Source: Trichomonas vaginalis G3
Lineage: Eukaryota; Parabasalia; Trichomonadida; Trichomonadidae
Assembly: GCF_026262505.1 (NCBI RefSeq)
Contig: NC_067207.1
Location: 30,224,082-30,288,081 of the forward strand
DNA: 64,000 nucleotides
Direction: 5' to 3'
How positions within the stretch are numbered: the stretch's first letter is position 1; each line of letters begins with the position of its first letter. Positions 18,411-61,822 of the stretch are shown here, in pieces. The translations under genes were made by a program, and so were the position numbers. The notes under the pieces are model-generated. The model was given only the letters and a program-made list of their open reading frames with translations. It was not told the DNA's origin and ran no database searches.

Positions 18411-19212
18411 AGTAGTAGGATAGGGCGGGGTGTGTGACTTTTTTTGTTACATCTATATATAGACGATGCATTAAAATATATTTATTTATAAATCATTAAA
18501 AAATTAACATTAATTTTAAAATAATTTATTTTTTTATCTTTTATAAAAGAAGCTATATATAGATGATGTCAGATATTCCGCGATTAATTAAACATTGTTT
18601 AAATCCTGAATGGGTTAAACTTCAATTTAAAAATGAAGATTGTGAATTATTAAATGAATATGAAAGCCAAAATAAGCTAATGAGGTATAAATATAATGAT
18701 AGGGAATATTTAATTTCATGGAATCAATGGAGTCATAATCAAAGACCTCATAAACGAGAAGAAGAAATTGAAAATAATGAAATGGAAATCATTGATGACA
18801 TTAAAGAGGATGGAATTCCTAAATTTTGTAGAAAAACCTTTAGAACTAAGTTAGGAGCATATAAACGTAGAGTATTAAATCCTGAATATCTTAAACATCA
18901 ATTTAAAAAGGAAGACTGTGAATTATTAAACGCTAATGAATATGAAAATGCTAAATCAAAACTGAGATATAAATATATTGGAAGTGATGAAAGGTGTAAA
19001 GATAAAGATAAAGTTTATTCAGTTTCATATAATAACTGGCACACGTTAGGGATAAGAAAACATTTAGGAGATTATGGTAAAAGTTCTGAATTCTTCAAAT
19101 CTAGTATGTACGAGAGAATAAAAGAAATTAGAAATAATTATTTTCATGAATGAAAGATTCACTACCATAATGAAATAAAAAATAAAAAAATAAACTTTAA
19201 AAATTCATGTCT
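18411..19212 (+). repeat. Left terminal inverted repeat of element 1
   Basis: Its reverse complement matches 39,370-40,274 from the outermost AGTAGTAGG to the inner AATTCATGTCT. It is about 100 bp shorter than the right copy because the right TIR carries extra sequence between its terminus and the TIR gene. Confidence 0.92.
18563..19153 (+). CDS. TIR-encoded protein, left copy
   Basis: The 196-residue protein is built of two related ~55-residue repeats (LNPEW.KLQFK.EDCELLN.YE… and LNPEY.KHQFKKEDCELLN…), each ending in a Y..S…W segment. The repeats loosely recall CapR/treble-clef-like modules that have lost their cysteines, suggesting nucleic-acid binding; this is inference. The right-TIR copy differs by one residue (ERIKEI versus ERVKEI). 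The gene lies within the TIR and is therefore present twice per element and transcribed inward from both ends. Confidence 0.8.
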   Translation: MMSDIPRLIKHCLNPEWVKLQFKNEDCELLNEYESQNKLMRYKYNDREYLISWNQWSHNQRPHKREEEIENNEMEIIDDIKEDGIPKFCRKTFRTKLGAYKRRVLNPEYLKHQFKKEDCELLNANEYENAKSKLRYKYIGSDERCKDKDKVYSVSYNNWHTLGIRKHLGDYGKSSEFFKSSMYERIKEIRNNYFHE

Positions 19213-29425: not shown

Positions 29426-32400
29426 GGGTCATTTACACTCATTACGATGAAGTCATGACAAATCATTTCCGGGACTGTTGTCTAAATGTCATGTTGTCTC
29501 ATTTTTTCAGAGAAGTTAATTAACCTGGTAGCACATGGTAACATGGTAGCACCCTCAGTTCTTCAAAAATAATTCATAAATACCTTCCTCCTGTGTTGTT
29601 GTCTAAATGTCATGTTGTCTCATTTTTTCAGAGAAGTTAATTAACCTGGTAGCACATGGTAACATGGTAGCACCCTCAGTTCTTCAAAAATAATTCATAA
29701 ATACCTTCCTCCTGTGTTGTTGTCTAAATGTCATGTTGTCTCATTTTTTCAGAGAAGTTAATTAACCTGGTAGCACATGGTAACATGGTAGCACCCTCAG
29801 TTCTTCAAAAATAATTAATTATTGAATAACATAAAAACCATTAACGTAAACATTATTTTTGGGTCATTTACACTCATTACGATGAAGTCATGACAAATCA
29901 TTTCCGGGACTGTTGTCTAAATGTCATGTTGTCTCATTTTTTCAGAGAAGTTAATTAACCTGGTAGCACATGTAACATGGTAGCACCCTCAGTTCTTCAA
30001 AAATAATTAATTATTGAATAACATAAAAACCATTAACGTAAACATTATTTTGGGTCATTTACACTCATTACGATGAAGTCATGACAAATCATTTCCGGGA
30101 CTGTTGTCTAAATGTCATGTTGTCTCATTTTTTCAGAGAAGTTAATTAACCTGGTAGCACATGGTAACATGGTAGCACCCTCAGTTCTTCAAAAATAATT
30201 CATAAATACCTTCCTCCTGTGTTGTTGTCTAAATGTCATGTTGTCTCATTTTTTCAGAGAAGTTAATTAACCTGGTAGCACATGGTAACATGGTAGCACC
30301 CTCAGTTCTTCAAAAATAATTAATTATTGAATAACATAAAAACCATTAACGTAAACATTATTTTTGGGTCATTTACACTCATTACGATGAAGTCATGACA
30401 AATCATTTCCGGGACTGTTGTCTAAATGTCATGTTGTCTCATTTTTTCAGAGAAGTTAATTAACCTGGTAGCACATGGTAACATGGTAGCACCCTCAGTT
30501 CTTCAAAAATAATTCATAAATACCTTCCTCCTGTGTTGTTGTCTAAATGTCATGTTGTCTCATTTTTTCAGAGAAGTTAATTAACCTGGTAGCACATGGT
30601 AACATGGTAGCACCCTCAGTTCTTCAAAAATAATTAATTATTGAATAACCTAAAAACCATTAACGTAAACATTATTTTTGGGTCATTTACACTCATTACG
30701 ATGAAGTCATGACAAATCATTTCCGGGACTGTTGTCTAAATGTCATGTTGTCTCATTTTTTCAGAGAAGTTAATTAACCTGGTAGCACATGGTAACATGG
30801 TAGCACCCTCAGTTCTTCAAAAATAATTAATTATTGAATAACATAAAAACCATTAACGTAAACATTATTTTTGGGTCATTTACACTCATTACGATGAAGT
30901 CATGACAAATCATTTCCGGGACTGTTGTCTAAATGTCATGTTGTCTCATTTTTTCAGAGAAGTTAATTAACCTGGTAGCACATGGTAACATGGTAGCACC
31001 CTCAGTTCTTCAAAAATAATTCATAAATACCTTCCTCCTGTGTTGTTGTCTAAATGTCATGTTGTCTCATTTTTTCAGAGAAGTTAATTAACCTGGTAGC
31101 ACATGGTAACATGGTAGCACCCTCAGTTCTTCAAAAATAATTAATTATTGAATAACCTAAAAACCATTAACGTAAACATTATTTTTGGGTCATTTACACT
31201 CATTACGATGAAGTCATGACAAATCATTTCCGGGACTGTTGTCTAAATGTCATGTTGTCTCATTTTTTCAGAGAAGTTAATTAACCTGGTAGCACATGGT
31301 AACATGGTAGCACCCTCAGTTCTTCAAAAATAATTAATTATTGAATAACATAAAAACCATTAACGTAAACATTATTTTTGGGTCATTTACACTCATTACG
31401 ATGAAGTCATGACAAATCATTTCCGGGACTGTTGTCTAAATGTCATGTTGTCTCATTTTTTCAGAGAAGTTAATTAACCTGGTAGCACATGGTAACATGG
31501 TAGCACCCTCAGTTCTTCAAAAATAATTAATTATTGAATAACCTAAAAACCATTAACGTAAACATTATTTTTGGGTCATTTACACTCATTACGATGAAGT
31601 CATGACAAATCATTTCCGGGACTGTTGTCTAAATGTCATGTTGTCTCATTTTTTCAGAGAAGTTAATTAACCTGGTAGCACATGGTAACATGGTAGCACC
31701 CTCAGTTCTTCAAAAATAATTAATTATTGAATAACATAAAAACCATTAACGTAAACATTATTTTTGGGTCATTTACACTCATTACGATGAAGTCATGACA
31801 AATCATTTCCGGGACTGTTGTCTAAATGTCATGTTGTCTCATTTTTTCAGAGAGTTAATTAACCTGTAGCACATGGTAACATGGTAGCACCCTCAGTTCT
31901 TCAAAAATAATTAATTATTGAATAACCTAAAAACCATTAACGTAAACATTATTTTTGGGTCATTTACACTCATTACGATGAAGTCATGACAAATCATTTC
32001 CGGGACTGTTGTCTAAATGTCATGTTGTCTCATTTTTTCAGAGAAGTTAATTAACCTGGTAGCACATGGTAACATGGTAGCACCCTCAGTTCTTCAAAAA
32101 TAATTCATAAATACCTTCCTCCTGTGTTGTTGTCTAAATGTCATGTTGTCTCATTTTTTCAGAGAAGTTAATTAACCTGGTAGCACATGGTAACATGGTA
32201 GCACCCTCAGTTCTTCAAAAATAATTAATTATTGAATAACCTAAAAACCATTAACGTAAACATTATTTTTGGGTCATTTACACTCATTACGATGAAGTCA
32301 TGACAAATCATTTCCGGGACTGTTGTCTAAATGTCATGTTGTCTCATTTTTTCAGAGAAGTTAATTAACCTGGTAGCACATGGTAACATGGTAGCACCCT

Positions 32401-32587
32401 CAGTTCTTCAAAAATAATTAATTATTGAATAACCTAAAAACCATTAACGTAAACATTATTTTTGGGTCATTTACACTCATTACGATGAAGTCATGACAAA
32501 TCATTTCCGGGACTGTTGTCTAAATGTCATGTTGTCTCATTTTTAAAAGAAGTTAAATGACCTGGTAGCACATGGTAACATGGTAGC
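29420..32587. repeat. 3.2-kb two-component satellite array of element 1
   Basis: About 19 copies of a ~100-bp core (…CTGGTAGCACATGGTAACAT, GGTAGCACCCTCAG…) are separated by either a short spacer (CATAAATACCTTCCTCCTG) or a long ~95-bp spacer (ATTGAATAAC.TAAAAACC…GGTCATTTACACTC…TTTCCGGGAC). Copies are nearly identical. The last core, near 32,545-32,587, is truncated and diverged. The long spacer repeats the sequence just upstream of the primase promoter. No ORF is present. The array may serve as a replication or packaging site, or have expanded passively. Confidence 0.95.
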
Positions 32588-32597
32588 ACTGAAAAAA

Positions 32598-39369: not shown

Positions 39370-40274
39370 AGACATGAATTTTTAAAGTTTATTTTTTTAT
39401 TTTTTTATTTCATTATGGTAGTGAATCTTTTATTCATGAAAATAATTATTTCTAATTTCTTTTACTCTCTCGTACATACTAGATTTGAAGAATTCGGAAC
39501 TTTTACCATAATCTCCTAAATGTTTTCTTATCCCTAACGTGTGCCAGTTATTATATGAAACTGAATAAACTTTATCTTTATCTTTACACCTTTCATCACT
39601 TCCAATATATTTATATCTCAGTTTTGATTTAGCATTTTCATATTCATTAGCGTTTAATAATTCACAGTCTTCCTTTTTAAATTGATGTTTAAGATATTCA
39701 GGATTTAATACTCTACGTTTATATGCTCCTAACTTAGTTCTAAAGGTTTTTCTACAAAATTTAGGAATTCCATCCTCTTTAATGTCATCAATGATTTCCA
39801 TTTCATTATTTTCAATTTCTTCTTCTCGTTTATGAGGTCTTTGATTATGACTCCATTGATTCCATGAAATTAAATATTCCCTATCATTATATTTATACCT
39901 CATTAGCTTATTTTGGCTTTCATATTCATTTAATAATTCACAATCTTCATTTTTAAATTGAAGTTTAACCCATTCAGGATTTAAACAATGTTTAATTAAT
40001 CGCGGAATATCTGACATCATCTATATATAGCTTCTTTTATAAAAGATAAAAAAATAAATTATTTTAAAATTAATGTTAATTTTTTAAAATGTGTTTAGTA
40101 TATAATATTTATTACTAATTTATTTAATAATGTCGCGCTTTCTTACGAATTCATGACTTAAAAAACGTAAGAAAAAATTTTTATATCATTTATATATAGA
40201 AGATGTGAAAATATACCTTCATCTATATATAGACGTAACAAAAAAAGTCACACAACCCTTCCTATCCTACTACT
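39370..40274 (-). repeat. Right terminal inverted repeat of element 1
   Basis: It is the inverted partner of 18411-19212. It carries about 100 extra bp between the TIR gene and the terminus, including a hairpin TTCTTACG (40,140-40,147) / CGTAAGAA (40,166-40,173) absent from the left TIR. Confidence 0.92.
39430..40020 (-). CDS. TIR-encoded protein, right copy
   Basis: This is the 196-residue duplicate of 18563-19153, differing at one residue (Val for Ile in the YER.KEI segment) and using TAA instead of TGA. Conservation of an open frame in both TIRs suggests either recent insertion or gene conversion between ends. It has the same two-repeat architecture, with a possible DNA-binding role at the termini. 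Confidence 0.8.
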   Translation of the reverse strand: MMSDIPRLIKHCLNPEWVKLQFKNEDCELLNEYESQNKLMRYKYNDREYLISWNQWSHNQRPHKREEEIENNEMEIIDDIKEDGIPKFCRKTFRTKLGAYKRRVLNPEYLKHQFKKEDCELLNANEYENAKSKLRYKYIGSDERCKDKDKVYSVSYNNWHTLGIRKHLGDYGKSSEFFKSSMYERVKEIRNNYFHE

Positions 40275-59502: not shown

Positions 59503-60119
59503 TTACATGTATTTTTCAGCAACTTCGTCAAATAATTTTATAGCTTTTATCTATCTCATCTACTTCAAACGTTTCTTTACCTTTCATGGGAGCACCATAC
59601 CTTTTCTCAAACTTTTCAAGTTAGTTCTGTTTCAGCAGCTCTCATATCGTTAACAAACACAACCTTGACTCTATTGACTATACTGTCATATTCTTTGAGT
59701 TATATTAATGTTCTTCCTATCTTATATCTTTTTGTATTGAAGTCCTTCGGTTTCTGAACGATGTAAAGTAAGCCTTCACTGCAACGTTCCGTATCGAATG
59801 AACCATATGTTATGAAGTTATATCCAACAACTGGGTCTAACCATAACAAAACTATTGGTATAAGACTTTTGTCTATAAGATATGCTGTAGTTCCATAGAA
59901 TCTTACCGATATCATAAGCTCAGGATTTCTTGTCAAAATTTTCTGAGTAGAAGCAATTCTAACCCAGTCGTGGGATGTTTTCTTTCCAGATGGAGATATA
60001 ATGTCTGACAAAGAATATTTGTTGTATTTCTTTGAGTATCTTACGTTTAAATCACCTATTCTAACCACTTTGGTGTTATTGTCTATCTTTTTAACTGTTT
60101 CAAACTCAATGTTTGTCAT
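59503..60119 (-). pseudogene. T5orf172/GIY-YIG-like (MUG113-type) domain protein, frameshifted
   Basis: From the ATG at 60119 (MTNIEF) a KilA-N/Bro-like first part (SLSDIISPSGKKTSHDWVRI…) leads to GLLYIVQKPKDFNTKRYKIGRT, the opening of a T5orf172 domain. The rest of that domain (VNRVKVVFVNDMRAAETELT, then EKFEKRYGAP…GKETFEVDEID) lies in shifted frames down to a stop at 59503. Such proteins are virus DNA-binding regulators or nucleases related to GIY-YIG. At least three shifts are present near 59,700, 59,625 and 59,530. Confidence 0.6.
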
Positions 60120-60158
60120 TTCTGTTCTTACATACAAAATAAAAAAAAATAAAAAAAT

Positions 60159-60253: not shown

Positions 60254-60339
60254 TTTCGTACGGAATCTCTACCCTCGGTTTTCCTCGGGTAGCAAACATA
60301 TGAGGAAATTCATGAAATTTGGTCATTTTTCAGCAAAAA

Positions 60340-60500
60340 TAAAGTTTAGGGTAGAAGGTTAGATCTAACCTGTTTTCTAACCTGTTTTCTAACATGATCT
60401 AAAACACACAAAACTCATGAAATTTGGTCATTTTTCAGCAAAAATAAAGTTTAGGTGAAGAGGTGAGATCTCACCCGTTTTTTCACCTGTTTTTTCACCT
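60340..60500. repeat. Palindromic operator-like repeats, left pair (L1, L2)
   Basis: L1 has the palindrome AGGTTAGATCTAACCT (60,356-60,371) followed by TTTTCTAACCT and TTTTCTAACAT. L2 has GGTGAGATCTCACC (60,462-60,475) followed by two TTTTTTCACCT boxes. Both are preceded by CAGCAAAAATAAAGTTTAG. The same units occur inverted at 61.5-61.8 kb. Confidence 0.85.
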
Positions 60501-60508
60501 CAGTTATT

Positions 60509-61423
60509 TTATAAGCGTTTTACATGAATTGTACGATGTATATTTGAAATCCTAAACAGTTTTGTAGCTTCTATTTCTTCTGTCAGTATGTCAAAAGTTT
60601 TAACTATGCCGAAAGTCTCTTTATACTTCTTCTTGACGTCAGATAGAAGGAAATCTTCTGCTGTTGGATAGTTTTTGTTCAGAAATGTCAACATGTCCAT
60701 TTTATCTTCTGCTGGCTTTTCTGCTTCTTTCTTTAAGTCAGCATAGTCGTTTCTCATACGTTCTATCTCTTTGACGGAGTAGTTATATTTTCTTATTGCT
60801 GCTTTACATTTAGAACATTGCGGGTTCATTTTTGCGTTATATTCTGAAACCTTACCTGCTAGAACAACCAAGGCGTCAATGGTTTTCTTTAAATCTGAAG
60901 CAGTTGGTTTTATCTGTTCATTCCATACCTTACCTCTTCTATCTTTATCTCTTATCTGCCATACACATTTTGCAACTAACGAAACAAAGTTGTCGTAGGT
61001 CTTAAACTCCCCAGATTTATATATGTCAGAAACATTTTTATATACCATGTCGCAATCTTTGTCCATAACCTTATGGTTGCAATGAAATCCTAGAAACTCA
61101 TAGTTTACCTTTCGTATGAACTTCTTTATTTCTACTGAGTCAGTTGCTTTGACTTCAATTTCGTCGAATTCAGGAATAGTTAGTTTTTGTTGCTGAATTT
61201 CAGGTAGTTTAGGCAAATGGTCAATAATGTCCTGCATTTCATAAAGATACTGTTCATTTGTTTCATCTTTCGCACTACAGTCTAAATTACTTGTTAACAG
61301 TTCTTGCTTTATCTTCTGGATTTCTGTTTCAAAAGTATATGAAGAAGGAATGAAGCTTTTCATCTCTACTAACATAGATGTTGGGTTCATAACTAACGAG
61401 TTTGGTGCTGTTGTTGCTAACAT
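60509..61423 (-). CDS. Unknown element 2 protein with CxxC pair
   Basis: This is an intact 304-residue protein. Helical N-terminus; a middle region with several Cys/His residues (GFHCNHKVMDKDCD, then NPQCSKCKAAIRK), possibly zinc-binding; and a C-terminal segment (TAEDFLLSDVKKKYKETFG…TKLFRISNIHRTIHV) with the look of a winged helix. It is flanked on both sides by inverted palindromic repeats and carries the shared 17-nt promoter motif 35 nt upstream. It is one of the few unbroken genes in this element. A DNA-binding role is inferred, not shown. Confidence 0.65.
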   Translation of the reverse strand: MLATTAPNSLVMNPTSMLVEMKSFIPSSYTFETEIQKIKQELLTSNLDCSAKDETNEQYLYEMQDIIDHLPKLPEIQQQKLTIPEFDEIEVKATDSVEIKKFIRKVNYEFLGFHCNHKVMDKDCDMVYKNVSDIYKSGEFKTYDNFVSLVAKCVWQIRDKDRRGKVWNEQIKPTASDLKKTIDALVVLAGKVSEYNAKMNPQCSKCKAAIRKYNYSVKEIERMRNDYADLKKEAEKPAEDKMDMLTFLNKNYPTAEDFLLSDVKKKYKETFGIVKTFDILTEEIEATKLFRISNIHRTIHVKRL

Positions 61424-61458
61424 GTTCTTACAATAAAAATAAAAAATATTTTTTTAAA

Positions 61459-61477
61459 AAAACTAACTTTATTTTTT
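61459..61477 (-). promoter_or_regulatory. Shared upstream motif, gene 60509-61423
   Basis: AAAACTAACTTTATTTT begins 35 nt before the ATG at 61423. Same motif as at 29,408, 59,455 and 60,159. Confidence 0.6.
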
Positions 61478-61496
61478 ATTTCGGGAAAATTCATGA

Positions 61497-61818
61497 AAAT
61501 TCAAGAGGGTAGAAATGAGGGTAGAAAAGAGGTTAGATCTAACCTTCTACCCTAAATTATATTTTTGCTGAATTCATGAGTTTTGGTTGAAAGAATACGG
61601 TGGAGCCAAAAGTGGCTCGACCTCAAAACAAGCATTTTGTGAAGAATAATACAAAATTCAACGGGTGAGAAAAGAGGTGAGAAAACAGGTGAGATCTCAC
61701 CTTCTACCCTAAACATTATTTTTGTGCTATGTTTTCTGTATAAAATTCATGACAAATTCAAGAGGTGAAAAAAGAGGTGAAAAAACAGGTGAGATCTCAC
61801 CTCTTCACCTAAACATTA
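61497..61818. repeat. Palindromic operator-like repeats, right trio (R1-R3)
   Basis: Palindromes are AGGTTAGATCTAACCT (61,530-61,545) and AGGTGAGATCTCACCT (61,687-61,702 and 61,787-61,802). Each is preceded by two related half-sites (GGGTAGAAA, GGGTGAGAAAA or AGGTGAAAAAA type) and followed by CTACCCTAAA or TTCACCTAAAC. Orientation is opposite to L1/L2. A short hairpin GAGCCA-AAAG-TGGCTC lies at about 61,605-61,620. Confidence 0.88.
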
Positions 61819-61822
61819 TTTT

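Follow-up and report, generated by a model that had tools for sequence, protein, structure and literature searches.

The DNA analysed here, referred to throughout as the window, is a stretch of 64,000 nucleotides of Trichomonas vaginalis (G000:C5:30224082-30288081, in a genome of 180.85 Mb). It holds a fragment of a viral-type DNA polymerase B (PF03175, E 7.2e-10) together with open frames that cluster with the KilA-N and T5orf172 genes of related loci, and because of these it was taken to be Maverick DNA. Judged by gene content, the host of the units described below is the Maverick (polinton-like) element; KilA-N (PF04383) is matched in L046 and L041, loci that also hold units, and an integrase-like gene, cluster c4, so named by eye, shares loci with them. 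One published survey gives Mavericks as the largest transposable element family in T. vaginalis, with ~5,000 copies amounting to 73 Mb, and the RNA data presented there count just 25 of 38,656 transposable element ORFs as expressed (PMC7845603).

The region of interest is centred on a DUF3839 gene with five units of ~60 bp around it, each made up of an A/T-rich tail, a box, a 14-base palindrome and two half-sites. Two types of unit dominate, here called G-type (words GGTGAA and GGTGAG) and T-type (words GGGTAG and GGTTAG). With the spans of the units set by a profile search, the features are as follows.

59700 to 60137, minus strand: neighbouring open frame of cluster c6, placed by clustering with longer c6 members
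60337 to 60393, plus strand: unit L1, T-type, with tail, box GGGTAG, palindrome GGTTAGATCTAACC (60357-60370) and half-sites CTAACC and CTAACA
60442 to 60500, plus strand: unit L2, G-type, with box GGTGAA, palindrome (60462-60475) and two TTCACC half-sites
60509 to 61423, minus strand: DUF3839 gene, a Maverick accessory gene of 304 aa (PF12943, E 7.4e-158)
61462 to 61475, minus strand: core-promoter-like motif AAAATAAAGTTAGT, ~49 nt before the DUF3839 ATG
61506 to 61564, minus strand: unit R1, T-type, the 5' unit of DUF3839 and in the same direction
61663 to 61721, minus strand: unit R2, mixed, with a T-type box and G-type palindrome and half-sites
61763 to 61821, minus strand: unit R3, G-type, its tail abutting the DUF7777 stop codon
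61823 to 62683, minus strand: neighbouring DUF7777 gene (PF24992, E 2e-23)

Five units with a shared layout had been described in the first-pass annotation and they are real, with palindromes at 60357, 60462, 61531, 61688 and 61788. Allowing two mismatches the palindrome is found five times against a chance mean of 1.22, at least five being reached in 0 of 100 shuffles, and a longer pattern of tail, box and palindrome also occurs five times in the window against a chance mean of 0.00. The mirror arrangement around the ORF at 60509-61423 stands as well, with two units facing right and three facing left, and the half-site end of the window units points toward the DUF3839 gene. L2, the 3' unit of that gene, begins 8 bp after the stop codon and has the opposite orientation, and R1 sits 34 bp before the core promoter of the gene.

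Other details of that description had to be revised. The tail, said to be fixed, reads AAATATAATTTAG in R1 and has several further variants elsewhere. CTAACC half-sites do follow a GGTTAG palindrome as claimed, yet CTACCC is found there too, R1 having CTACCC only and L1 having CTAACA as its second half-site. The matching of words within a unit mostly holds in the window, with R2 itself discordant. To this can be added that the box (GGGTAG or GGTGAA) belongs to the covarying set, and that the centre of the palindrome is not always AGATCT, as there are 4265 (2101 + 2164) further sites of the form GGTKAGATDTMACC genome-wide.

Pfam places the DUF3839 protein in DUF3839 alone above its cut-off, and no transposase or informative family match was found in Pfam, PHROGs or PDB sequences. 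The AlphaFold model, at a pLDDT of 41, is too poor to use; by eye the last 60 residues may resemble a winged helix, and the protein has invariant Cys/His. There are no relatives in viral contigs and none in phages at E 1e-5; the best 120 of 285 homologues all carry T. vaginalis names, and among these matches the window protein has homologues recorded under Trichomonas vaginalis G3. In some NCBI entries a DUF3839 protein is called 'organellar and viral DNA polymerase type B', a name that may come from a neighbour given that Pfam reports DUF3839 alone. Short remnants that end in NNVYHVKRL and resemble the DUF3839 C-terminus lie between tandem 3' units at L036:3016, L046:3392, L059:1500 and other places. 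DUF3839 was considered as a specificity partner of the units and rejected: the variant found at its C-terminus corresponds to the 3' unit next to it, yet the 5' units vary freely, and because the type of the 5' unit is independent of the variant the agreement at the 3' side is explained by linkage.

Among the genes nearby, the longer c6 member in L034 matches T5orf172 (PF10544, E 4.2e-06) and has no KilA-N match, and the window c6 frame, which is shorter than its relatives, has no T5orf172 match in Pfam. Elsewhere in the window a near-identical 196-aa frame occurs as inverted copies at both ends of the first Maverick (18563-19153 and 39430-40020), presumably within its terminal repeats. The same Maverick contains a 121/193-bp tandem repeat array (29476-32589) that runs into the upstream region of a 770-aa gene, and long copies of this array contain AAAAATAATGTTTACG, which is similar to the unit tail.

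Abundance and covariation of the units

The first-pass annotation had proposed a search for more units in other copies of the element, and thousands were found genome-wide: the core GGTNAGATCTNACC has 8139 matches, with 0 for the same core read backwards. Box and left palindrome arm are both G-type in 4069 sites and both T-type in 3517, with 306 of 7892 mismatched (221 + 85); the two palindrome arms differ in 507 of 8139 sites (237 + 270), both being T-type in 3504. The covariation was therefore kept as more copies were aligned, in these counts as in 111 sampled units, with none of the loss that had been named beforehand as speaking against it.

The sample of 111 units comprised 56 G-type, 50 T-type and 5 mixed, and 17 of them, R2 of the window included, were mismatched or partly unclassified. 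Mutual information was calculated on 106 units, leaving out the 5 mixed palindromes (91 for the second half-site and 88 for the outer flank). Normalised values against the class of the palindrome were 0.77, 0.71 and 0.65 for the classes of the box and half-sites. The base between box and palindrome gave 0.00, with 44 A and 12 T in G-type units and 39 A and 11 T in T-type units. The sequence class behind the half-sites gave 0.02 once shifts of 1-2 bases were allowed, a value reached by 312 of 500 shuffles; the 8-mer at that place had given 0.47 before shifts were allowed and is alignment-sensitive. Tail (0.16) and spacer (0.14) are weakly associated with type, 0 of 500 shuffles reaching these values, and 59 of 500 reached the 0.13 of the outer flank.

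Such covariation could in principle be nothing more than descent from two ancestral units, with linkage in a functionless block of 60 bp. The units are indeed short and have been duplicated as blocks, as in the 128-bp tandem copies in L046, tandem neighbours share type and centre base in 49 of 65 pairs, and the association of tail and spacer with type points the same way. Against this, five hexamers shift jointly whereas the inner base and the sequence behind the half-sites ignore type, which makes linkage alone a poor explanation; both types also occur within one locus in 11 of 36 sampled loci, and in the window they do so with the same flanks. It would seem unlikely that descent accounts for the pattern, and a common reader is the better explanation for why the hexamers match, because in a linked block the inner base would be expected to follow them. 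The copies are related, however, and the A/T independence of the inner base could reflect recurrent mutation.

Position of the units relative to genes

The arrangement around the DUF3839 gene of the window recurs in related loci. All 28 DUF3839 starts with a recognisable core motif have a unit in the same direction 24-71 bp upstream of the motif, with a mode of 34-36; a looser detection of starts gives 11 of 12 with an upstream unit in this direction. An inverted unit lies 0-9 bp behind the stop in 29 of 29. Upstream units in the same direction are also found at the starts of KilA-N genes of type b (8/8) and of methyltransferase genes (3/3), and an inverted unit overlaps the stop of the ORF164 gene in 10 of 10 cases. 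These counts include related copies: a single near-identical group supplies as many as 15 of the DUF3839 stops, four of the KilA-N type b starts and all 10 ORF164 stops.

Other families differ. KilA-N genes of type a have a unit in the same direction at 0 of 10 starts (four have one in the opposite direction), T5orf172 (c6) genes have one at 1 of 8 (again with four opposite), and the starts of eight further families have no upstream unit in either direction in 32 cases: the integrase-like c4 (0/2), polymerase (0/3), c12, an ATPase by eye (0/1), DUF7777 (0/10), c1 (0/3), c8 (0/6), c9 (0/3) and c13 (0/4). Since upstream units are present for some families and absent from these, the modules belong to some of the accessory genes. 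A unit does stand behind the DUF7777 stop in 6 of 11 cases, tail first. Read in the orientation of the unit, the tail is similar to the core promoter motif that these elements carry, and in reverse it gives TAAA and then a T-rich run just past the stop codon, UAAA being a signal of T. vaginalis. The modules upstream of DUF3839 and of c6 are almost identical in L034.

Several smaller observations concern the surroundings of the units. A 272-aa DNA methyltransferase-like protein is encoded directly behind unit pairs at L049:3571-4389 and L043:2251-3069, the L049 copy matching PHROG 56 (E 1e-13), and these unit pairs have AGATCT palindrome centres, which bear GATC. The idea that the adjoining methyltransferase methylates GATC in the centres was set aside because 4265 palindromes are without GATC and because a nanopore study gives WATW and TAT as the methylation contexts with no enrichment in transposable elements (PMC12695648). 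Copies that are otherwise similar differ in whether a small palindrome like GCCGCTAAGCGGC separates the 5' unit from the core promoter (the L032:4546 and L040:4108 regions and L052:871-927). A tRNA-like stretch with a GGTTCGAACC box lies near a Maverick gene at L052:375-490; ARAGORN finds no tRNA in it.

Exchange of genes between units

The sampled loci form three sets: L031-L050, which were chosen for clusters of sites; L051-L066, which came from the best DUF3839 matches and include five of one near-identical group; and L067-L076, which all belong to that group, being 10 further members of it among the matches listed. The first five members, L051-L055, are 97.7-99.7% identical over ~2 kb or more, and where L052, L054 and L055 have an ORF of 164 aa and L051 a frame of 136 aa, L053 has a KilA-N gene on the opposite strand, bounded by the same two units. 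Across the 15 related Maverick segments, the interval bounded by these units holds ORF164 or its shortened form in 10, a KilA-N gene in 4 and no gene in 1; L068 also has the 136-aa frame together with an extra unit, and L069 is the segment without a gene. In the best of the comparisons, L054 and L053 share both units fully, their similarity ending 3 bp past the first tail and resuming 10 bp before the second. Compared with L054, the four KilA-N copies are 97.9-100% identical over 158-191 bp in the second unit and beyond, and L069 is 99.1% identical over 457 bp of the flank past it; for the first unit together with the end of the preceding gene, identity is 94.6-100% among the KilA-N copies and 96.4% for L069.

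Exchange among close relatives is seen in 15 copies with three contents, with edges at the module in the comparison of L053 with L054, and the support from a wider test of break points is moderate. In L031-L050 and the window, 32% of 180 breaks in intergenic similarity fall within 30 bp outside a unit, against 8.3% for random positions. This excess shrinks with stricter identity: a threshold of 94% leaves 21% of 91 breaks, with 6.9% expected at random, and one of 96% leaves 15% of 27, with 8.4% expected. When the interior of the unit is included at 96% identity, 5 of 27 breaks lie within 30 bp, which is the random level (0.19 against 0.18).

Rearrangement on a larger scale is seen in the order of genes, which is c2-c0-c6-c4 in L034 and c2-c6-c0-c4 in L040 and L032. 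In L034 the DUF3839 block precedes c6, and in L040 and L032 it follows c6, which is interrupted in L032. The move is not a clean one, since c2 and the DUF3839 block are separated in L034 by ~700 bp that are missing from L040. The two ends of a cassette also tend to agree. Among the 192 sites in the initial 2.31 Mb of contig 1, type and centre base agree across a gene-sized gap in 24 of 30 pairs of units, whereas units separated by 5-60 kb agree in 25 of 76 and the random expectation is 0.21. This matching across gene-sized gaps suggests that the ends of a cassette evolve together, which might be as the ends of one mobile block or through conversion.

One candidate for a mobile block would be a small transposon within Mavericks, with the units as its terminal inverted repeats and DUF3839 as its transposase. 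The units do face inward on both sides of DUF3839, as inverted ends bounding one element would, and the matched subtypes, the position of the DUF3839 block on either side of c6 and a solo unit in L031 are all consistent with jumping. Yet the same units enclose other genes without DUF3839, in some cases with both units in the same direction, and DUF3839 has no transposase match in Pfam, PHROGs or PDB sequences. By eye, comparison of L031 with the window shows its solo unit in place of an intergenic stretch and of the gene end next to it, and neither a clean empty site nor a target-site duplication could be seen at this one solo-unit site and one moved cassette. We consider a transposon unlikely. 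Short unit pairs ~237 bp apart, too close together for a DUF3839 gene and often with ATAT centres, are found at G000:C1:1512119-1512684 and similar places; the idea that gene-less short pairs are MITEs was rejected on one pair, in L035, where by eye the sequence between the units looks like Maverick flank.

The units could alternatively be recombination sites for an element-encoded enzyme, for example the T5orf172 protein, which is presumably kin to GIY-YIG nucleases, in an integron-like or homing system. The swap leaves units whole, with edges 3 and 10 bp outside them, the perfect palindrome and repeated half-sites would suit such an enzyme, a T5orf172 gene is found in the same region, and the covarying hexamers imply a recognising protein. 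The near-identity inside the swapped units, however, hides the point of crossover, so passive homologous recombination fits equally well, and the c6 frame of the window is the short one that does not match T5orf172. Dedicated enzyme sites seem quite improbable.

Proposed function and relation to known systems

The reading that we favour, with moderate confidence, is that the unit is a regulatory module, an operator array with promoter- and terminator-like ends, that doubles as a junction for the exchange of gene cassettes. Operators for paralogous DNA-binding proteins were one of two functions suggested in the first-pass annotation, and this part is strengthened by the position of the units, their layout, the genome-wide covariation and the KilA-N genes between such units in related loci; as is expected of an operator array, several copies of one recognition word change together. 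The suggestion had missed that the units bound swappable cassettes, that the type of the 5' unit is independent of the DUF3839 variant and that the layout is family-wide in Mavericks. For the other function, a foldable signal for replication or packaging, nothing was found within the scope of a folding test. A hairpin in single-stranded DNA or RNA serving in replication, packaging or 3' end formation is very improbable since, although each of the five window units, folded as DNA, does better than the mean of its shuffles (z -1.7 to -3.6) and the reversed tail has its TAAA and T-rich run past the stop codon, a hairpin needs one partner per arm whereas the extra half-sites covary too and give competing folds, and the 5' units, being upstream of a core-promoter-like motif, are unlikely to be in mRNA.

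Under the regulatory module that we favour, about five hexamers (the box, two palindrome arms and usually two half-sites) would be read by a sequence-specific DNA-binding protein with one of two specificities, GGTGAR or GGKTAG. The module stands ~35 bp upstream of the core promoter and is repeated, inverted, behind the DUF3839 stop; it would affect the transcription of accessory genes, and the ends of the unit may, by their resemblance to known motifs, act as promoter and terminator. Since several different genes are bordered by one and the same module, it would also supply short homology for exchange, so that whole genes may be exchanged, gained or lost between Maverick copies with the modules left intact, plausibly by homologous recombination or by template switching during replication of the element. 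What is directly seen of this is the swap of gene content between two units in near-identical copies. Points that weigh against the favoured reading are the shrinking of the break-point excess at high identity, the weak tie of tail and spacer to type, the families whose starts have few or no units, and the small number of transposable element ORFs counted as expressed. A more far-reaching version, which we think rather unlikely, is an integron-like cassette system of two-specificity operator arrays, in which an element-encoded protein both controls the genes and drives their exchange; if it were true, accessory genes would each have their own promoter in a eukaryotic virus-like element.

A shared boundary module would explain the shuffling of Maverick accessory genes, and the units are a concrete and abundant site at which to look for the proteins that control these genes. 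Thousands of natural variants within one genome also allow statistical tests of recognition and recombination.

The pattern of tail, box and palindrome that finds all five window units has 0 matches in viral contigs, and no published account of the units was found among open-licence papers. There are nevertheless several known systems with which they share features. Small DNA transposons have terminal inverted repeats, and the inverted units with matched subtype at both ends of one gene resemble these, but here several unrelated genes lie between the same units, which in some cases are direct repeats, and no target duplication was seen at the sites inspected. Bacterial REPtrons consist of dispersed palindromic REP sequences flanking tyrosine transposase genes; the units are likewise dispersed, palindromic and intergenic and form inverted pairs around one gene, whereas Pfam and PHROGs give no match between DUF3839 and these transposases and the units are arrays of hexamers. 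Integron gene cassettes carry attC sites, and here too genes are swapped between palindromic sites of variable sequence; the differences are that no tyrosine integrase is tied to the units and that DUF3839 cassettes have their own promoter-like motif.

By analogy, the nearest known kind would be the PeSLs (promoter early stem-loops) of T4-type phages, which a paper citing the original work presents as short, repeated intergenic modules, promoter-like with a stem-loop, that are reported to shuffle genes between close relatives (PMC4503421). The units are similarly a module repeated in the intergenic space of one virus group, as the 8139 exact cores attest, and close relatives have swapped the genes that lie between them, the edges of the swap falling at the module, while their likeness to promoters and terminators is one of motif resemblance. 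They differ from PeSLs in sitting in a eukaryotic Maverick, with a different host and polymerase, and in being arrays of covarying hexamers, of two types, that are inverted on the two sides of a gene.
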